The position numbers and the translations under genes were made by a program. A DNA stretch of 64,000 nucleotides from Terriglobia bacterium (GTDB taxonomy: Bacteria; Acidobacteriota; Terriglobia; Bryobacterales; Bryobacteraceae). Numbering within the stretch: the first letter of the stretch is position 1; each line of letters begins with the position of its first letter. The notes beneath the pieces were generated by a model. That model did no database searches and was not told the DNA's origin. It worked only from the letters and a program-made list of their open reading frames with translations. Of the stretch, positions 35,735-61,376 are shown one piece after another. The DNA lies in NCBI GenBank assembly GCA_020073345.1, contig JAIQFI010000009.1, positions 62,001-126,000 on the forward strand. Reading direction: 5' to 3'.

Positions 35735-38608
35735 TCACGGCTGATTCTTGCTCGCATACTCCCCGGCAGCGGTGACGAACTCGGAAAGAGTAAATTCGTA
35801 CGCCTTGCCATCGGGCGAGCGCAGCATCTCCTCAATCACGTGCAAACCCAAACGCCGGTAGCTCTCAAATTGCGATTCATCAAAGAACTGGTCGGAGGTC
35901 GGCTGATGCGGGAACAGGGGGTCCGCCGCCGCGTAGTGTTGCACGTCCGCAGGCTCGTTGCCGTTGAGGGAAGGCTTGATGTAAATCAAGATGCCTTCGG
36001 GTGCGTCCGGTCCGTCGACCGCGGAATAGCGGATGCGGGCGATCGCGCAGTGTTTGCCGCTATGCCGCGCCGTGGGCATTTTATCCGCCGACATCGGCAT
36101 ATGAGGATCGTCGAAATCGATCGGGATACCTAAATCGATGCGGATCTTGCGAACCGCGTTGGCCAGATCCTCATACGTGTAATCCGGGTCGCACCCGGCA
36201 TCGGACACCACGATGCAATGGCAGCGCCGCAGAACCATTTCATAGATGGCAAGATTCTCAAAATGACCGCCGTCGGAGAGATAGATCCAGGAGTTGGTGT
36301 CTGTAGTCAGCCCGAAGGCTTCATCCAGAAACGGCCGGATTCCCCAGACGGGGCTCGGTGCCGTCCAAATTCGGCGATTGCGCCGCGGATTCCCCAGCCA
36401 CCAGCCCAGCCTGGCGTTGAACAGCGTCATGACCAGCATCAGCAAAGGCGAGGAATGATAACCCATGTTTGGGCTCGCCGCCGCGCCTGAGATGGTGATG
36501 GCGGTACCCAGCGAGATCGGTGTTTTGGTCGTGGTGTAGCGTCCCCCGTACAGCGCCGACGGGCGATAGTCGATGCACAGTCCCCCGGTATGCAGGCGTG
36601 TCGACGTGAAGGATGCGGCTTTCCGTTCCTGCCACTTGAGGTTTTCGCCATGAACCAAATTCAGCGCCATGTTGACCACGTGCATGGGCTTGTTCGCGGT
36701 CAACGTACACATCGAAATGTTGTCGTTCTCATCGAAACCTGTGAACGGATGAGGGCGGCGGAAGGGATTGGAAGCTCCCAGGTACGCGCGAATCAGTCTC
36801 TGGCGATACATCGCGTGGAGAGAAAACTTATTCACGTTGATGAACCAGGAGGCCATCAGACACAGAGCGCTATAGCCGAGCGCCAGCCCCAAAACCGGGG
36901 CAGTAAAACCCCATAAAGAAGGTCCGGAAGAAGGAAGGCCGAACACGGTGAGAATCCTTTGATTGAGCCCCGACAGGAGCATCACCAGTAAAAGCATGAA
37001 GCAGGCCATCAATAGTTGCCCACCGTAACGCTTAAACAATCTCGAAGCGGTGCCGCCTAGATCCGCGTTGCTGACATCCTGACGGCCGCTGAGCGTCTTG
37101 GAACTGTTTCCAACTCTCGCGGCTGTGAAGCCCATCAAGCTGGTGAGAGCCGTTACGGCCGCGCTGGTACGAGTATCCAGCCAGTTGAGCGCCTGGGGCG
37201 AATAGAGCACTACACATGCGAACGCCAGCCAACCGAGCGCAATTGCAAGAAACCATCCGCCCGATGTCGCCCACCATTCCCGGTCTTCATCCTTGGTCAC
37301 GTAGCTGGTCGATCCCACCAACAAAGATCCGGAGAAGAGAAACACACCCATCAACATGGGGAAGGCCAGACAGGCATAAAGCCTGGGGTCCTGCAAAAAA
37401 TCCGAATAGTCGGTCTCCACGGCTGCCAGTTGCGCGATGGTCCAAGCCGCCAGCCCGCCCACAAACCCCGCCACGAAAGCGGCGCTGGTGGCCACGACTC
37501 CGGTCCTGGTCGGCGGCCGGCGGAAGCGGAACTTTACATGTCCCAAGCCAACCAGCATTCCTCCGCCGTGCATCACGGCTCCAAACACCGCGAAGTGCCA
37601 CCACGCGACGCCCTCTTTCCCGAGGCTCACCACGTCCCACCAAGCGGCGGTAGTGACCCCAGCCGGCATCCACGCCCAGAAAACACTCAGAGCCGCCGCG
37701 GCCAAAGACAAAGGAGCCAGGCAGTAGATAAAAAAGTGCTTCGACGAGCGTTCCGCGTCTCCGGCACTAGGGAGATCAAAGCCGACATACGCAGTCGCCT
37801 GACCGCCCAGGAGCATCCCGGCGATGAGTAAGGACCAAAGGGCAAGCGGTTCGACGTCGGAAGGACGAAGCCACATCACCCGCCAACAGAAAACGGGAAT
37901 CAGCAGGAATGCGGCAAATGCGGGGAGCAACACCAGCCAATTCAGGAACATGTTCCGAAGGACCGTGGAAGCGAGCGTCCAAGTGTCGGTTGAAAAGAAA
38001 CCGAGCTTCGGCGAAAGATAGTTGCTATAGGCGCGCAGATGTTTGACCGGCTCGCGCTCCGGCTCAAAACCTACGTCTGGCACGGATGCCAGGTCGCGAA
38101 TCACATCGGCGCTCCCGTCTCGAAGATCGGGAATGCCGCAATCGTATAGGCGTTCGCCGGAACCTCCGGAATCGTCAATCTTCGATCGGCGGGTGGCCCA
38201 AGCTGAAAACCATGAGCCCAGGTATCCGCCTCCGGACACCGTGGAGAGGTAATCGAACTCCCCCAGCAGATCAGGGCGTTCACCATCGGGCTTGCGAGAA
38301 TATGCGGCCAGTCCCTGAAGCACTCCCAGACCAAACGTCGCGCTACGAATGCCGCCTCCGGAAAAACAGAGCGCGCTCCGGGCGCTTGCGTGGAGCCTCT
38401 GCATGACTCGGGCACGATACTTCCGCGTGATCTCGCCATTGCCTGTGGGATGCTCGCGCAAGGCTCGCCGATATTCTTCGCGAAGCTGGACATCGCTCTC
38501 GGAGGGCGTCGAACCGGTAAGCTCTTGATTCTCTTCGTCGAGAATCTCCAGATAGGAGAGTGGCTGGTGCTCGTGGTGTGCTCGCCCGATCATTTTGAAA
38601 CGTTCCAC
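35735..38608 (-). CDS. Patatin-like phospholipase with large membrane domain
   Basis: A 957-residue protein. Residues 78-135 contain the patatin oxyanion loop FSGGGIRSATFG and nucleophile TVSGGGYLGSW (Ser125). Roughly residues 215-600 hold about ten hydrophobic segments, and the catalytic Asp lies far downstream in LSDGGHFENLAI near residue 790. The catalytic dyad is therefore split by a membrane domain of some 380 residues. Such hybrids are rare compared with ordinary 250-350 residue patatins. It would be an acyl hydrolase working at a membrane. It is divergent from the haem dioxygenase gene, 56 bases away. Confidence 0.8.
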   Translation of the reverse strand: MERFKMIGRAHHEHQPLSYLEILDEENQELTGSTPSESDVQLREEYRRALREHPTGNGEITRKYRARVMQRLHASARSALCFSGGGIRSATFGLGVLQGLAAYSRKPDGERPDLLGEFDYLSTVSGGGYLGSWFSAWATRRSKIDDSGGSGERLYDCGIPDLRDGSADVIRDLASVPDVGFEPEREPVKHLRAYSNYLSPKLGFFSTDTWTLASTVLRNMFLNWLVLLPAFAAFLLIPVFCWRVMWLRPSDVEPLALWSLLIAGMLLGGQATAYVGFDLPSAGDAERSSKHFFIYCLAPLSLAAAALSVFWAWMPAGVTTAAWWDVVSLGKEGVAWWHFAVFGAVMHGGGMLVGLGHVKFRFRRPPTRTGVVATSAAFVAGFVGGLAAWTIAQLAAVETDYSDFLQDPRLYACLAFPMLMGVFLFSGSLLVGSTSYVTKDEDREWWATSGGWFLAIALGWLAFACVVLYSPQALNWLDTRTSAAVTALTSLMGFTAARVGNSSKTLSGRQDVSNADLGGTASRLFKRYGGQLLMACFMLLLVMLLSGLNQRILTVFGLPSSGPSLWGFTAPVLGLALGYSALCLMASWFINVNKFSLHAMYRQRLIRAYLGASNPFRRPHPFTGFDENDNISMCTLTANKPMHVVNMALNLVHGENLKWQERKAASFTSTRLHTGGLCIDYRPSALYGGRYTTTKTPISLGTAITISGAAASPNMGYHSSPLLMLVMTLFNARLGWWLGNPRRNRRIWTAPSPVWGIRPFLDEAFGLTTDTNSWIYLSDGGHFENLAIYEMVLRRCHCIVVSDAGCDPDYTYEDLANAVRKIRIDLGIPIDFDDPHMPMSADKMPTARHSGKHCAIARIRYSAVDGPDAPEGILIYIKPSLNGNEPADVQHYAAADPLFPHQPTSDQFFDESQFESYRRLGLHVIEEMLRSPDGKAYEFTLSEFVTAAGEYASKNQP

Positions 38609-38619
38609 ACTGGGGCGTC

Positions 38620-38632
38620 ACTAAGTCTTAGT
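38620..38632. promoter_or_regulatory. Palindrome in divergent patatin/dioxygenase promoter
   Basis: ACTAAGTCTTAGT is a 13-base palindrome centred on T. It is followed by a second TAAGTCTAG, so TAAGTCT occurs twice at a nine-base interval. It lies between the start codons at 38608 (-) and 38665 (+) and could be an operator shared by both genes. Confidence 0.35.
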
Positions 38633-38664
38633 AAGTCTAGTACCATCGTTCAAGGGTCGTCAAT

Positions 38665-41562
38665 ATGCCAAGGATTCAATGCTGTCTCTTAGCGGCTGCG
38701 ACGTTGCTGGGGGCGAGTTGCAATCGAACGTCTCCTAAATTAGTGAAGGCCGAGCTGGCTTCGTTGCAGGCCTGTGAAGAAATGGCGCGGGACGGCCTCC
38801 GGCCCATCGCAACTTCGCGCGATGACCGATTCTTGGCGAAAGTCCAGACCGCGACGGCGTTGTGCCGCGGTGGAAACCGGGCGACGCAGTTTCGGATGAC
38901 TCCGTGGGTGGATTGGGCGAACTATTGGGGTGCGGGCGACGCCAGTTCTAAGGCCCCGGATTTTGTGAAGCAGGCGGGCCATCTCGGTCCGACGCAGCGC
39001 GGCATCGATGGCGCTCTCCTGGACCTGGAATACGAACGCATCGAGCTGATCAAGTTCAATCTGTTCGATAACAATGGCACCTATAAGGAGTACGTTTCGG
39101 GCCGCAATGGAGTGGGAGGTCCGGCGCTCAAGACCTGGAAGGAATTGCGCCTTCCGCCTGCGAATCCGGACTACGCGCGCGTAGGCGGCGCCGGGGAGCA
39201 GGTCTGCAAGGGCGAACTGATCCGGCACCGCAACGTCAACGGCATCTGCAACGACATCTTCAATCCTCTGATGGGTTCGACCGGCCGAAGGTTTGCGCGT
39301 AACGTGACGTTCGACACCACCTTTCCCGATCAAGGCCGAACGGACCTCACCAGGAATCGTCACGGGGATCGGCTCAGTCTGATGAAGCCGGATCCGCAGG
39401 TGATCAGCCGCAAGCTGTTCACCAGGCAGCAAACCGATCCCGGCAAGTGCAACAACGGGTACGGTCTGCCCGGTTTTTCAAAGGATGCCGATTGCGACTA
39501 CAAAAAGGCGCCGTTCTTCAATGTTCTGGCCGCGTTTTGGATCCAGTTCATGACCCACGATTGGTTCTCGCACCTGGAGGAAGGCCACAATCAGGCGGAA
39601 TACATGACCGTCGGCTGCTCCTCGCAGAAGGTGAATGGCGTCGAAAAGCCGCTGACGCCCGAGGACGCAAAGAAGCTCGGCTGCCGGCCGAGCGACCAGA
39701 TCGACAAGGCCTACGTCGCGGAGAGCTCCGAGCCGAAGCAATTCTCAAAGGACGGCAAGGCCTACTCTGAGCGCGCGCCGAAGACTTTTGGAAATAACGT
39801 AACCGCCTGGTGGGATGCTTCGCAGATCTACGGCTATGACGATCGTTCCAGGATGCGCGTAAAGCGCGAGCCGGCAGATCCGGCCAGACTGTTGCTGCCG
39901 AACGTCACGGGACGCACCAGCGAAGGCGATCGGCAAGGCTACCTTCCCACGCTCGCGCCGTCCGATCCGATGAATCCGGAATGGGCCGGGCAGGAAGCGA
40001 CGGCATTTCCGGACAACTTTACGGTCGGCGTCAGCTTTTATCACAACCTCTTCGCCCGCGAACACAATGCGTTCGTCGACGAGTTCCGGAAGCAGGCGGC
40101 GCGGACGCCCGACGCGGATTCGGGGCTTCGCAATCCCGCTCAGCCTGGCCGCGTGATCCACTATCGCGACGTGACGCCGGACGAGTTGTTCGAAGCGGCC
40201 CGGCTGGTAGTGGCGGCGGAGATCGCCAGAATCCATACCATCGAATGGACTCCTCAGCTCTTGTATGGCGAGCCGCTATATCTGGGCATGAACGCCAACT
40301 GGAATGGACTGCTGGGCGATCATGCGCCGCAAGTATCGGAAGCGTTGCGGCAAATCGTCTCCAGAAGCTTTGGCGCTTCGAGCGACGTTAAGAAGGCCAC
40401 GCAGTGGTACTCGGTGTTTGCATCCGGGCCGGGGATCTTCGGGCTTGGCAGCCGTGTCTATGCCGATGACCCGGTGTGGTCGTTGATCGATCCTAATAAA
40501 AAAGATATTTGGGATCTTTCCAACCCGCAGCACGTCAACGGCGGGGTGAATCACTTCGGGTCGCCTTTCAATTTCCCGGAGGAGTTTGTCACAGTTTACC
40601 GGCTGCATGCCTTGGTGCCGGACCTGCTCGAATACCGCGAGTTGGCCACGCCCAACGAGATTAAGAACAAAATTCCAGTAGTCGAAACCTTCCAAGCCAA
40701 GGCAACCGATGCTACGCGGTCGCGGGGGCTCTCCAACTGGGCGCTCACGATGGGCCGGCAGCGCCTGGGGCTTCTGGCGCTCGAAAACTCTCCACAGTTC
40801 TTGCAGAATCTGAAAATCCCGCGCTTGAACTCGGCCACGCAGCAAATCGACGTGGTGGCGCTCGATCTGATCCGCGACCGCGAGCGCGGCGTCCCGCGGT
40901 TCAATGAGTTTCGCCGCCAGTATGGATTGCGGCAGCTCACCAGCTTCGACGACTTCGTCGACCAGCGCTTGCCCGCCAATTCCGCGGAGAAGTCCAGCCA
41001 GCAACGGTTGGCCGCGGCGCTGCGCGAAGTATACGGCCAGCACGTTTGCGACGCTGCAAAAGTGATTACGGATGTACAACGCAACGAAGACCGGTCGCCC
41101 ATCAACGATTGCCTCGGGCATCCCAACGGCAGCATGGTAGACAACGTCGAGGACGTGGATACAGTCGTGGGGTGGCAGGCCGAATCCACCCGGCCCCACG
41201 GGTTCGCGATTTCCGAGACACAATTCGTGGTGTTTATTCTCAACGCGTCCCGCAGGCTGTATAGCGATCGTTTTTTCACATCCAGTTTTCGGCCGGAGTT
41301 CTACACCCAACTCGGACTCGACTGGGTGATCAACAATGGGCCGGGACCCGCGCAGATGGAAAAGGGAACGCCGAACGGGCACTCGCAGCCAGTCTCTCCA
41401 CTGAAGCGGGTGCTTCTGCGTACGATGCCCGAACTGGCCCCGGAACTCAGCACCGTAGTCAACGCCTTCGACCCATGGGCTAGAGATCGGGGCGAATACT
41501 ACAGTCTCGAGTGGAAACCGCGAGCTGGGGCGGATTCCGACGAGGCGTTTCGCAAGAAGTGA
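38665..41562 (+). CDS. Lipoprotein haem dioxygenase/peroxidase, COX/alpha-DOX-like
   Basis: The 965-residue protein has a lipoprotein signal with Cys near residue 19 (LLGASCNRTS). The animal haem peroxidase core has QFMTHDWF, where Gln294 and His298 match the distal site. FAREHNAFVDEF follows, and then EEFVTVYRLHALVPD, in which Tyr645 and His648 match the catalytic Tyr and proximal His of cyclooxygenases and alpha-dioxygenases. Peroxidases without dioxygenase activity lack this Tyr. The protein probably oxygenates a fatty acid at the cell surface. It has an unusual N-terminal 280 residues and inserts relative to COX. Neighbours are a patatin and a phospholipase C-like gene. Confidence 0.85.
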   Translation: MPRIQCCLLAAATLLGASCNRTSPKLVKAELASLQACEEMARDGLRPIATSRDDRFLAKVQTATALCRGGNRATQFRMTPWVDWANYWGAGDASSKAPDFVKQAGHLGPTQRGIDGALLDLEYERIELIKFNLFDNNGTYKEYVSGRNGVGGPALKTWKELRLPPANPDYARVGGAGEQVCKGELIRHRNVNGICNDIFNPLMGSTGRRFARNVTFDTTFPDQGRTDLTRNRHGDRLSLMKPDPQVISRKLFTRQQTDPGKCNNGYGLPGFSKDADCDYKKAPFFNVLAAFWIQFMTHDWFSHLEEGHNQAEYMTVGCSSQKVNGVEKPLTPEDAKKLGCRPSDQIDKAYVAESSEPKQFSKDGKAYSERAPKTFGNNVTAWWDASQIYGYDDRSRMRVKREPADPARLLLPNVTGRTSEGDRQGYLPTLAPSDPMNPEWAGQEATAFPDNFTVGVSFYHNLFAREHNAFVDEFRKQAARTPDADSGLRNPAQPGRVIHYRDVTPDELFEAARLVVAAEIARIHTIEWTPQLLYGEPLYLGMNANWNGLLGDHAPQVSEALRQIVSRSFGASSDVKKATQWYSVFASGPGIFGLGSRVYADDPVWSLIDPNKKDIWDLSNPQHVNGGVNHFGSPFNFPEEFVTVYRLHALVPDLLEYRELATPNEIKNKIPVVETFQAKATDATRSRGLSNWALTMGRQRLGLLALENSPQFLQNLKIPRLNSATQQIDVVALDLIRDRERGVPRFNEFRRQYGLRQLTSFDDFVDQRLPANSAEKSSQQRLAAALREVYGQHVCDAAKVITDVQRNEDRSPINDCLGHPNGSMVDNVEDVDTVVGWQAESTRPHGFAISETQFVVFILNASRRLYSDRFFTSSFRPEFYTQLGLDWVINNGPGPAQMEKGTPNGHSQPVSPLKRVLLRTMPELAPELSTVVNAFDPWARDRGEYYSLEWKPRAGADSDEAFRKK

Positions 41563-41675
41563 GCGCCGGCCAGGATTTCCCAAATGGGTACAGTAATCAT
41601 CAGACAAATAAATTGGGCCGTTTTTGAAACGCTTCCCTGTACAATCGAATCCAGTTCTTTTAACGAGGATCACAA

Positions 41676-42902
41676 ATGCCCGCGGGTCTGGATAATTTAA
41701 AGCACATCGTAGTCTTGATGATGGAAAATCGGTCGTTCGACCATATGCTGGGCGCCTTGATGAAGCAGGACCCGCGCATCAACGGCCTCAGGGGCACGGA
41801 ATCCAATCTCGACACCAGCAACGAACCCGCCAGGGTTCAACCTCAGGCGCGGTTTCAGGGCCAGCTCGATCCCGATCCGGACCATCACTTTCCCGCGGTG
41901 CATAAGCAGCTCTACTTTGGCACGACCGGGCCGCCGGCGGCGCCTTCAATGGGGGGCTTCGTCCAGAGTTATCACGATCAGCGCCAGGACGTAAATCATT
42001 CGCGCCAGATCATGTTCTACTTCCCGCCGGAGAAGCTGCCTGTATTGACGACGTTGGCCAGAAGTTATGCGGTTTTCAATGGCTGGTTCTCTTCCATCCC
42101 CGGTCCGACCCTCTGCAATCGCGCCTTCGCCCACTACGGCACGTCTTTCGGTCATGTGGACATGAATCTGTTCTACGAAAAGACCCCGTTTCTGAGCATT
42201 TACGACCGCATGCTCAAGGCGGGAAAGACCACTAAGCTGTATTACTACGACCGGGCAAGTTCCAGCCTGGAGGTCGTGAATTTACTGAAGAATCAGCCCA
42301 AGATCTTTGCGACATATCCCCAGTTTCTCGAAGATTGTAAGCGCGGCGAACTACCCGACTACTCCTTCGTCGAACCCAACTATAGCGACCACCTGGGCGA
42401 AGGGGGCGGCGAAGAGCTGGCTTCAGACCAGCATCCGGATCACGACGTGCAGGCCGGAGAGATCTTCATCGCGTCTATTTATAACGCGATCCGTCAGAAC
42501 CCCGACCTGTGGAAGAGCACTGCGCTCCTGATCGCTTACGATGAGCACGGCGGGATCTATGACCACGTTCCGCCTCCCGCCTGTCTCGCCGACGGTTTCC
42601 ACGCGACCGAACAGCAGACGGGAGTTCCCGGACAACCGTTCGCATTCGACCGCCTGGGTGTCCGTGTTCCCGCCATTCTGGTGTCGCCCTGGGTTCCGAA
42701 GGCCACGGTAGTGCCGGGGACGGAAGATCCTGCGAACGGACGCATCTTCGAACACGCGTCCATCCCCGCGACCGTGACCAAGCAGTTTCTCGGAACCTAT
42801 GATGAGCGTTCTCCTCGTGAGAAGGCCGCGCTGACGTTCTTGGATCTTCTATCCGATACGATGCGCCCCGAGGCCGATTGTCCAGTCTTCAACTTCGCGT
42901 GA
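41676..42902 (+). CDS. Phospholipase C / acid phosphatase-family phosphoesterase
   Basis: A 408-residue protein of the phosphoesterase family that includes phospholipase C and AcpA: KHIVVLMMENRSFDHMLG at the N-terminus, DPDPDHHF, PGPTLCNRAFAHYGTS, YSFVEPNY, and YDEHGGIYDHVPPP carrying Asp/His metal ligands. Unlike most relatives it has no signal peptide; the mature domain begins at once. It could be cytoplasmic or exported by a non-canonical route. The start has TAACGAGGA upstream. A small protein and an outer-membrane barrel follow within 300 bases. Confidence 0.88.
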   Translation: MPAGLDNLKHIVVLMMENRSFDHMLGALMKQDPRINGLRGTESNLDTSNEPARVQPQARFQGQLDPDPDHHFPAVHKQLYFGTTGPPAAPSMGGFVQSYHDQRQDVNHSRQIMFYFPPEKLPVLTTLARSYAVFNGWFSSIPGPTLCNRAFAHYGTSFGHVDMNLFYEKTPFLSIYDRMLKAGKTTKLYYYDRASSSLEVVNLLKNQPKIFATYPQFLEDCKRGELPDYSFVEPNYSDHLGEGGGEELASDQHPDHDVQAGEIFIASIYNAIRQNPDLWKSTALLIAYDEHGGIYDHVPPPACLADGFHATEQQTGVPGQPFAFDRLGVRVPAILVSPWVPKATVVPGTEDPANGRIFEHASIPATVTKQFLGTYDERSPREKAALTFLDLLSDTMRPEADCPVFNFA

Positions 42903-43177: not shown

Positions 43178-44566
43178 GTGCGAATCATAGTTCTTATCGG
43201 GTGCCTGCTTGCTGCGGGATGGGCTCACGCTCAGGAGAGCGGCCTGGGAGCGGATTTCCGCCACGAAAAGGATCATCTCAAGGACTGCACCAGTTTCAAA
43301 AGCATAATCGGCTGTGGGGAAACCTTATTTACCGGTCATCCGTTGCACATCGCCGTCGGAAGTCTGGCGCCCGGGAATGGCGTGGGAGCCGGCTTGGCGC
43401 TTGTGACCCATTGGACTCCCAACGAAACTTGGCGCCTGAACTTGGATGCGGACGGCATCACAACGCCCAATGGTTCCTGGCGAGCCGGCGCGTACATGAC
43501 CGCCGTATTCATCCGCAGGCGGCAACTTGTGGCGAGTCCCGGCGGGCCGGGGACCACGTCCAATCTGGCTGTGCAGGAATACCCGGTCTTCCACCTCTAC
43601 GCGCAAGGCATCTCTCTGGAAAAAATCAGCTACTTCGGCTTAGGGCCCGACACCCAGGAATCGGCGCGGTCGTACTTCGGAATGCGGCAGACTGTGATCG
43701 GAACCAATGCCGTCTGGCCCGTGTTTAAGAAGCTGAACGTGTCGCTGCTAGGCGAAGCCAACGGACGCTTCGTGAATATCCGGCCGAGCCTGAACCAGGC
43801 CAGCCCATCCATCGGCCAGCTTTACACCGAATCCACGGCTCCAGGGCTCACTCAGCAAAGCGCGTTTGCGCAATTCGGAGAAGGCGTGCGTATTCGTCCC
43901 CAGCTCGCCGGCGGCTTCGTGCGGCTCAACTACCTCGCCGAGTTTCAGGAATTTGTTTCGCCTGGTACGTCGCAATATTCCTTCAACCGGTTCACCGTGG
44001 ATCTCTCACATCAGTTCCCCCTATACCGAAAGACGCGATCGCTGATTCCGCTCGATTCGAACGGACCCAACGACTGCTCGGGCGGACTTAATGTGCACGA
44101 CTGCCCGCCTGTCACGGGAGGCACATCCCGGAATCTGGAGGGTAGCTTCAACCTGCGATTCTTGATGAATCAGTCCTTCGTGCCATCCGGACACGTCGTG
44201 CCGTTCTACTTTCAGCCCACTCTGGGAGGATCCGATATTGACGGCGCGGCATCGCTCAGCAGTTACCGCGATTATCGTTTCCGTGCGCCCAACTCGATCC
44301 TGGTTCGAGCCAGCTTCGAGCATTCGCTCTTCGACTGGCCCCTGGGAGTGATGGCCATGATCGACGAAGGGAAAGTGGCAAATACGCGCGGCGATCTCGA
44401 TTTCACGCATCTCCGCCATAGCTACTCGGCCGGATTGACGCTGCGCGCCGGCGGTTTTCCGCTGATCAATATTCTCTTTTCCTGGGGCGGCAATGAAGGC
44501 CGTCATACCATCGTCAACATGGATCCCTCGCTGCTGGGTGGCGGCGCGCGACCGTCTTTATATTGA
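43178..44566 (+). CDS. Omp85/BamA-like outer-membrane beta barrel
   Basis: A 462-residue exported protein (signal peptide to residue 19, AHAQ) with alternating beta strands throughout: LHIAVGSLAPGNGVGAGLAL, WRLNLDADGI, ISYFGLGPDTQES, GVRIRPQLAGGFVRLNYLAEF, HLRHSYSAGLTLRAGG. The pattern is like bacterial surface antigens of the Omp85 C-terminal barrel, without POTRA domains. It starts with GTG at 43178. The position after the phospholipase-like gene suggests a translocator or an outer-membrane partner. Confidence 0.65.
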   Translation: MRIIVLIGCLLAAGWAHAQESGLGADFRHEKDHLKDCTSFKSIIGCGETLFTGHPLHIAVGSLAPGNGVGAGLALVTHWTPNETWRLNLDADGITTPNGSWRAGAYMTAVFIRRRQLVASPGGPGTTSNLAVQEYPVFHLYAQGISLEKISYFGLGPDTQESARSYFGMRQTVIGTNAVWPVFKKLNVSLLGEANGRFVNIRPSLNQASPSIGQLYTESTAPGLTQQSAFAQFGEGVRIRPQLAGGFVRLNYLAEFQEFVSPGTSQYSFNRFTVDLSHQFPLYRKTRSLIPLDSNGPNDCSGGLNVHDCPPVTGGTSRNLEGSFNLRFLMNQSFVPSGHVVPFYFQPTLGGSDIDGAASLSSYRDYRFRAPNSILVRASFEHSLFDWPLGVMAMIDEGKVANTRGDLDFTHLRHSYSAGLTLRAGGFPLINILFSWGGNEGRHTIVNMDPSLLGGGARPSLY

Positions 44567-60453: not shown

Positions 60454-61376
60454 TTACGCATCCGCTATCGCGTCCCGGCATGCTCGCCGTATCATCGGCT
60501 CCGCAGCCTGCACGCATGCCAATCCTTCGGTAATGGCTTCATTTGCGCGATGAAAATCGAGCCAGGAAAATTCCCCTAGCCTTGGGCATAGAAGCACATC
60601 GGGAGGATCGCCAGCCAGTCGCGTCCGGGTAATACGATCCTGCATGATGTTCAAAGAATTCGCCAACACTTCGAAGTAACTTGGATAGTTGAGTCCGGCC
60701 TGGAGCACGCGTTGAAGAATTGGACCGACCGCGTCCATCAGCCACTGAGGCGCATGGGCCGAAACGGCAGGCGCCGTGGGGGACGCGGTCACGTCAATAT
60801 CGGACCCGCTGAAGCGCCGCCCGACCAATTCCGAGTTGAGGTCGACAGCGATGACAATATCGGCACCCAAAGCACGCGCGAGCGACACCGGTACGGGATT
60901 GACCAGACCGTCGTCGATCAACCACCGATCGTCATGCCTCGTCGGGCTGAAGATTCCCGCCATACCGATTGACGCGCGTACCGCGCGCCCGATCGGTCCC
61001 TTCTGAAGCCAAATCTCACGTCCCGACGCAAGATCCGTTGCCACCGCAGCATAACGGGGACCCTGCGCTTCGATCGAGCCAGCAATTCCCAAGCTCTCGA
61101 GAAACGTTTCTACACGCCTGCCTTCAATCAGGCCGCCGGTCGTGAGATGCACGTCGAACATGGCAGCAACATCGCGCCGGCCGAAATTCTCCATCCGGGT
61201 CTTATAAGCGCGGCAAGTTTGCCGGTCACGAAGGCGGCTCCGACCAATGCGCCAATAGAAGTACCTGAAACAACCTCCGGCACGATTCCCAGCGCTGCGA
61301 GTCCCTCCAACACGCCAATCTCGGCCCATCCGCGCGCCGCGCCGCTGCCGAGTGCAACACCAATTTTCGGTCGCAT
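60454..61376 (-). pseudogene. RssA/NTE-type patatin with a frameshift
   Basis: The N-terminal part starts at ATG 61376 and reads MRPKIGVALGSGAARGWAEI, followed by VVSGTSIGALVGAA with the nucleophile Ser. Near 61205 the homology jumps to another frame, which continues FGRRDVAAMFDVHLTTGG to the catalytic Asp in LIDDGLVNP and runs to 60454. One or two bases must be gained or lost at the junction. Intact, it would be a patatin of about 305 residues acting on phospholipids in the cytoplasm. It is a recent pseudogene or an assembly error; all later motifs are undamaged. Confidence 0.75.

Follow-up and report, generated by a model that had tools for sequence, protein, structure and literature searches.

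What does a bacterial haem enzyme encoded back to back with a lipase do, and does the lipase feed it? The question arises from a locus in a 64,000-nt stretch of Terriglobia bacterium contig JAIQFI010000009.1 (positions 62,001 to 126,000; the whole stretch is called the window here), where the gene for the enzyme, P0001, lies divergent from that for a membrane patatin, P0002, and is followed by that for a PF04185 phosphoesterase, P0003. The initial annotation saw in the three a possible oxylipin locus, in which a cyclooxygenase (COX)-like lipoprotein and two lipases could release and oxygenate fatty acids at the cell surface. In our analysis, sequence, active-site residues and overall fold all relate P0001 to the fatty-acid alpha-dioxygenases (alpha-DOXs), and the reading that we favour, at a probability of about 0.65, is that it is an exported (periplasmic or membrane-anchored) enzyme of this class, from a distinct long subfamily and possibly fed by the patatin. 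The claim for the enzyme stands well above that for the pathway.

Active site and fold of the haem enzyme

When P0001 was compared with solved chains by phmmer, the alpha-DOXs of rice and Arabidopsis came top (4kvj, E 1.6e-53; 4hhr, E 1.3e-50) and COX-1 matched at E 0.033; a 46-sequence profile matched rice alpha-DOX at E 6.3e-76. The site residues of the rice enzyme, as given in the available part of PMC8720084, were mapped onto P0001, the rice numbering being fixed by the Y379F chain 4kvl, which departs from wild type exactly where Tyr645 aligns. Conservation was read in 81 rows, those of the window and of 80 named relatives; the latter are the best 80 of 198 confirmed by a two-pattern contig scan, with best-segment identity to P0001 of at least 59%. 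Two rows are unreadable, L151 together with L147 or, at His298, with L121.

38665..41562, + strand: long alpha-dioxygenase-type haem enzyme P0001, 965 aa (PF03098, 220 bits)
38665..38718, + strand: signal-peptide-like N-terminus, MPRIQCCLLAAATLLGAS, then Cys; lipobox imperfect (from the sequence)
39556..39558, + strand: His298, distal haem His (rice H157); alignment, 79/79 readable rows
40234..40251, + strand: His524 to Thr529 with Trp528, for positioning of carboxylate and alpha carbon (rice H311, W315, T316); 79/79 readable rows
40597..40608, + strand: Tyr645, radical Tyr (rice Y379), to His648, proximal His (rice H382); 79/79 readable rows
41254..41256, + strand: Arg864, carboxylate partner (rice R559); 79/79 readable rows

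Tyr645 and His648 lie in EEFVTVYRLHALVPD (residues 639-653) and His298 in WIQFMTHDWF, all three present as the initial annotation had claimed. Rice and window residues are identical at H157-H298, H311-H524, W315-W528, T316-T529, A331-A544, F375-F641, Y379-Y645, H382-H648, F549-F854, F552-F857, I553-I858, A556-A861 and R559-R864; rice M325 is L538 in P0001, and rice L53 and R57 fall outside the mappable alignment. Ten of the P0001 residues (H298, H524, W528, T529, F641, Y645, H648, F857, A861 and R864) are identical in every readable row, while A544, F854 and I858 vary among the 81. No homologue lacking the Tyr, one half of what had been named as refuting the original proposal, appeared among the readable rows.

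As a control, COX homologues and plasmid-borne alpha-DOXs were added to the alignment with MAFFT --add. In the COX homologues of Nitrosomonas europaea and N. communis, position 524 is F, 528 is P, 857 is V and 864 is H, and 298 falls in a gap; both homologues retain the Tyr, the proximal His and the Thr, so that T529 does not discriminate. All ten residues are found in each of the plasmid alpha-DOXs (5/5). Among 13 aligned short forms from acidobacteria the Tyr, proximal His, H524, T529 and R864 are kept, and in one (L106) Arg replaces the distal His, which we count as a counterpoint to the control. COX identity was rejected on the sequence ranking and the control residues: what remains of the label "COX-like dioxygenase" is an active site of fatty-acid-oxygenase type, with those haem and carboxylate residues of the rice enzyme that could be mapped kept, but it resembles that of alpha-DOX and not that of COX.

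An AlphaFold2 model of P0001 built from 46 sequences (mean predicted local distance difference test score, pLDDT, 73.9; predicted template modelling score 0.82) has a predicted fold closest to alpha-DOX 4kvl (Z 26.3, 568 residues aligned, root-mean-square deviation 3.0), with weaker matches of the model to lactoperoxidase (Z 22.0) and COX-2 (Z 18.8).

In the reaction that we propose, peroxide-activated haem would generate a radical on Tyr645, while His524 and Arg864 would hold the fatty-acid carboxylate and Thr529 position the alpha carbon. Hydrogen abstraction at C2 and addition of O2 would give a 2-hydroperoxy fatty acid, which may be converted to the 2-hydroxy acid or lose CO2 to leave an aldehyde one carbon shorter. 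Free fatty acid would be supplied by the divergent membrane patatin, and the whole step would take place in the envelope.

The long subfamily

Members of the long form are about 910-1000 aa in length, have ten invariant Cys, present in every row that can be read there (79 or 80 of 81), and in many cases carry export signals. They span seven phyla: Acidobacteriota, Pseudomonadota, Nitrospirota, Campylobacterota, Thermodesulfobacteriota, Gemmatimonadota and Myxococcota. P0001 has matches in 32 of the 257 genomes of the window's order, 24 with the long and 8 with the short form as sorted by reading the rows; a sample of the phylum gave matches in 13 of 396 genomes, and no relative was found in the viral contigs searched. 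A tree built from 78 rows of the long form and 12 of the short, by a quick method whose program warned of long short-form rows, separates the two forms by a fully supported, very long branch. One genome, G023, has its long DOX in pieces at two contig ends (L078:182-1475; L079:147-490) with internal parts missing, an effect either of assembly or of decay.

The N-terminus of P0001 suggests export: it is signal-like, as the name "lipoprotein" had implied, but at the Cys it reads LLGASC, with Gly at -3, an imperfect lipobox (GASC) and not a strict one; 34 of the 80 relatives have a strict lipobox. Judged by eye, several other long relatives begin with a Sec-like signal, and some have none at the start chosen.

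How the long form stands to known enzymes can be set out briefly. With the plant alpha-DOXs (rice OsaDOX, Arabidopsis DOX1) it has the haem and carboxylate residues and the overall fold in common, but the solved plant chains are 621-652 aa, whereas the window family adds an N-terminal extension, insertions, the ten Cys and, in many members, a signal for bacterial export. The short bacterial alpha-DOXs, such as CalDOX and LepDOX in the accessible text of PMC8720084, have a core of about 550-650 aa and lie on the opposite side of the fully supported branch; the same residues are found in five plasmid-borne forms. COXs and the Nostoc linoleate 10S-dioxygenase (10S-DOX) belong to the same superfamily and have the Tyr and proximal His, but carboxylate-site residues differ in the two COX controls, a comparison that did not extend to 10S-DOX. 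The animal-type peroxidases (lactoperoxidase, myeloperoxidase) are alike in fold and much weaker in sequence match.

Alpha-DOXs from five bacterial phyla, Acidobacteria included, are already published (PMC8720084, available part), and the window gene is a variant of that class; the long subfamily itself is distinct. In the PMC8720084 survey sequences of more than 1000 aa were removed and extensions cut back; the part of it available names no long subfamily. Our literature search, largely at the level of abstracts and taking in few subscription papers, found neither a long subfamily nor a catalase/alpha-DOX fusion described. PMC8720084 and PMC9305512, in the parts available, handle bacterial alpha-DOXs as biocatalysts, and from these parts the physiology of the enzymes seems open.

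The patatin and other neighbours

35735..38608, - strand: membrane patatin P0002, 957 aa (PF01734, 29.7 bits; cut-off 27.7)
38342..38362, - strand: patatin motif SGGGIRS, presumably oxyanion
38225..38242, - strand: patatin motif TVSGGG, presumably nucleophile
36266..36274, - strand: patatin motif DGG, presumably catalytic Asp
38609..38664, no strand: divergent gap of 56 bp between patatin and dioxygenase, from the ends of the open reading frames (ORFs)
41676..42902, + strand: PF04185 phosphoesterase (phospholipase C (PLC)-type) gene P0003, 408 aa (PF04185, 236 bits)
43178..44566, + strand: family-unassigned protein, 462 aa, with signal-like N-terminus; final gene of the block that a congener retains (88% in G020)

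The three ORFs of the initial annotation were confirmed in position and orientation. The congeneric genome G020 keeps the block from the patatin to the 43178..44566 protein at 84-91% identity, and a search of 17.5 kb there for seven other window neighbours found none; retention of the four genes without the others argues that the window ORFs are real and not due to chance. The PF04185 gene follows the dioxygenase at 113 bp, and the divergent gap has a counterpart in L120, with 59 bp between the patatin and DOX matches.

P0002 barely exceeds the PF01734 cut-off. It has SGGGIRS, TVSGGG and DGG, which we take to be the oxyanion, Ser nucleophile and catalytic Asp motifs, so that the features by which a patatin phospholipase is recognized (oxyanion glycines, nucleophile Ser, Asp of DGG) are all present; seven hydrophobic segments, found by a Kyte-Doolittle scan, separate its two catalytic parts.

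Neighbours were counted within 6 kb of 90 long loci, 47 of which have 6 kb on both sides. Membrane patatins lie near six (the window, L120, L141, L160, L191, L096) and other patatins near four (L136, L195, L180, L157), giving 10/90 with either kind. The density of PF01734 (about 28 distinct genes in 37 Mb from eight genomes picked because they have such loci or belong to Nitrosomonas) predicts about 0.65 patatins in the 869106 bp (0.87 Mb) of flank, a figure that is somewhat low because PF01734 missed the L191 patatin; with the density doubled, the Poisson chance of at least 8 is 7e-5. Several queries came from counted loci, and the counts include kin pairs (window/L120, L141/L191, L180/L195); with kin collapsed, about seven lineages bear a patatin. 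Beyond 6 kb the same queries, in 340 kb, matched only more pieces of the L096 gene, against about 4 expected from the near rate. The link between patatin and dioxygenase is likely real but loose.

P0003 belongs to PF04185, as "phospholipase C-type" suggested, but scores 106.6 bits against the phosphocholine-specific PLC model TIGR03396, whose curated cut-off is 580. Within 6 kb, PF04185 genes occur at 2 of the 90 long loci, both of one genus, and one further case pairs a partial DOX with a PF04185 protein at 35%. Multiple copies of the family occur in 8 of the 9 genomes searched, and G020 has another PF04185 gene (C64) beside another relative of the 43178..44566 protein, apart from its DOX contig (C91); G023 and G168 were left out of this comparison on account of contig ends. 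The multiple copies and the DOX-free pair weaken PF04185 as a DOX partner, and we regard the gene as probably a neighbour bound to one lineage, not a core component. On the 2/90 count we rejected the idea that the three genes form a general set: patatins recur near the dioxygenase gene in several phyla, but the full set is kept in a single congeneric genome. The 43178..44566 protein, which had no Pfam match and no credible match among solved structures, looks by eye like what we take to be an outer-membrane barrel.

Other neighbours of the 90 long loci include catalase-like proteins (22), DyP-like proteins (16), a 435-aa protein (19), a 151-aa protein (22), FAD (flavin adenine dinucleotide)/ALO oxidases (6), GMC oxidoreductases (5), Tle1-like lipases (5), cytochrome c type proteins (5), lipoxygenases (4: L132, L185, L172, L157), a 1300-aa protein of unknown kind (3) and COX homologues (2); none has a thiamine pyrophosphate (TPP) enzyme. 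The 22 short-type loci form a biased sample, 14 acidobacterial and 8 of 20 plasmid hits, of which H17 and H19 were fetched for a nearby patatin. They have membrane patatin at 3, other patatin at 1 (none at the 14 acidobacterial loci), catalase-like at 5, TPP enzyme at 4, cytochrome c type at 2, and FAD/ALO, GMC and Tle1-like at 1 each; PF04185, lipoxygenase, COX, DyP-like, 435-aa and 151-aa proteins were not found at any of the 22. The window neighbours scanned contain none of the catalase-related, COX or lipoxygenase partner genes, the local candidate partner being the patatin; in the window genome a CAT2-type homologue and a lipoxygenase were not found, in a search that did not cover CAT1, DyP-like or 435-aa proteins.

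In 15 loci the catalase-like match lies 30-242 bp from the long DOX. The label is partly weak: CAT1 of L164 and of L168 score 25.0 and 29.5 bits against PF00199 (cut-off 25), CAT2 matched nothing in Pfam and takes its name from its likeness to CAT1, and the DyP-like proteins score around or below Pfam cut-offs. The nearest solved relative of L164 CAT1 is coral allene oxide synthase (E 2.9e-5). At L164:11988-17476 and in its relatives, catalase-like, 151-aa, 435-aa, weakly DyP-like and second catalase-like genes recur beside the long alpha-DOX; this block occurs in methanotrophs, halomonads and others, and for three of its proteins Pfam gave no match.

L198:8762-11590; L200:8789-11638; L203:8696-11620: alpha-DOX loci with a fused or probably fused catalase-related N-terminal domain

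Two of the rhizobial-type plasmid alpha-DOX ORFs, of 942 and 949 aa, from Rhizobium phaseoli and Phyllobacterium, carry N-terminal PF00199 (28.1 and 26.5 bits) ahead of PF03098 (327 and 296 bits), and the N-terminal part of one matches 3e4w at E 9.2e-12; three further plasmid records have catalase-like similarity at the same place, spanned in one by a 974-aa ORF, and Nonomuraea probably has such a fusion too. A pair that is fused in one lineage and adjacent elsewhere argues for a step shared by the catalase-related protein and alpha-DOX. A precedent is found in Nostoc, where the product of linoleate 10S-DOX is, according to the available part of PMC13049297, handled by a catalase-related lyase, an arrangement like that of window relatives beside catalase-related genes.

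Three adjoining genes at N. europaea locus L172 (5611-7212, 7248-8945, 9001-11862) encode a COX homologue, which scores 240 bits to COX-2, a lipoxygenase and the long alpha-DOX; a tyrosinase and a GMC oxidoreductase are nearby. The N. communis locus L157 also has COX homologue, lipoxygenase and DOX. Plasmid alpha-DOX genes at L197, L199, L200 and L204 lie near TPP-dependent enzymes, as expected for fatty-acid alpha-oxidation, and the Streptomyces plasmid gene is near an FAD oxidase, a P450 and an alpha/beta hydrolase as well.

Rival readings and a possible wider system

Several points weigh against an exported, patatin-fed alpha-dioxygenase. The pLDDT falls below 50 at 532-558, 626-645 and 839-873 among others, several of them active-site stretches, so that the placement of Tyr645 rests on sequence and not on model geometry. 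P0001 scores 185 bits to rice alpha-DOX against 390 for a short bacterial member, and the long form has several insertions of its own; a form this distant from proven alpha-DOXs could differ in substrate or product. The dioxygenase gene is accessory in its genus, 23 searched genomes having the long form in 2 and the short form in 1 more. The catalytic motifs of P0002 flank seven predicted membrane segments, which does not fix the side of the membrane on which they act; P0003, in which no hydrophobic signal was seen, looks cytosolic; and 80 of the 90 long loci (47 of the 90 having full flanks) have no patatin within 6 kb. The proposed action "at the cell surface" is accordingly not borne out, with a multi-pass patatin of unfixed orientation and a PF04185 protein that lacks a hydrophobic signal.

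The enzyme might instead be a peroxidase only, exported to protect the envelope by consuming H2O2 or lipid hydroperoxides, with the Tyr structural. Superfamily and fold are common to it and lactoperoxidase (Z 22.0), and catalase-like and weakly DyP-like genes surround many relatives; but an invariant carboxylate-site His, Thr and Arg and invariant Tyr-stacking Phe residues would be needless in a plain peroxidase, and the nearest solved relatives are oxygenases, so we hold this unlikely. An attack on mid-chain allylic carbons, as by a COX or 10S-DOX, appears quite improbable, since the COX controls lack the residues at 524, 528 and 864 and COX-1 reached only E 0.033 (10S-DOX being outside the comparison), even with the Tyr and proximal His common to COX, the COX-2 fold match at Z 18.8, and relatives that adjoin a true COX homologue and a lipoxygenase.

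That the neighbourhood is coincidental, the enzyme acting alone with patatin and PLC as passengers, could well be so, though we lean the other way; it is compatible with an alpha-dioxygenase, and the odds of the two do not sum to one. Neighbours vary across most relatives, the PLC occurs in one lineage only, and a patatin is out of reach at the 80 loci just mentioned; against this, 6/90 long loci, from at least four lineages and with differing gene orders, have a membrane patatin of this kind close by, as do the alpha-DOX genes of three rhizobial plasmids that are related to one another, two of these plasmids having been fetched because a patatin hit was nearby.

More tentatively, and on balance doubtfully, the long alpha-DOX may act as the central oxygenase in an envelope oxylipin system that is widespread and moves horizontally, a bacterial counterpart of the eicosanoid cascade, in which a lipase (patatin, Tle1-like or other) would feed formation of 2-hydroperoxides that pass to interchangeable partners: catalase-related or DyP-like haem proteins, FAD/GMC oxidoreductases and sometimes a clustered lipoxygenase and COX. 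In this soil acidobacterium the enzyme stands next to a lipase-like gene, and its relatives elsewhere are often found amid genes that handle lipid peroxides; this hints at a little-studied bacterial oxylipin pathway. A conserved, often exported subfamily with recurring partners in nitrifiers, methanotrophs, halomonads and acidobacteria makes such a pathway testable in isolates (Nitrosomonas europaea, Methylomonas lenta, Halomonas, Acidobacteriaceae bacterium KBS 83). The subfamily is also a source of new enzymes for aldehydes and 2-hydroxy acids.

Two minor features of the window lie outside the block. At 44655-45818 genes for a papain-type cysteine protease (PF00112) and a chagasin-type inhibitor (PF09394) stand tail to tail, a possible protease-inhibitor pair, and close to the window end, at 60877-61355 on the minus strand, there is a second, unrelated-looking PF01734 patatin match.

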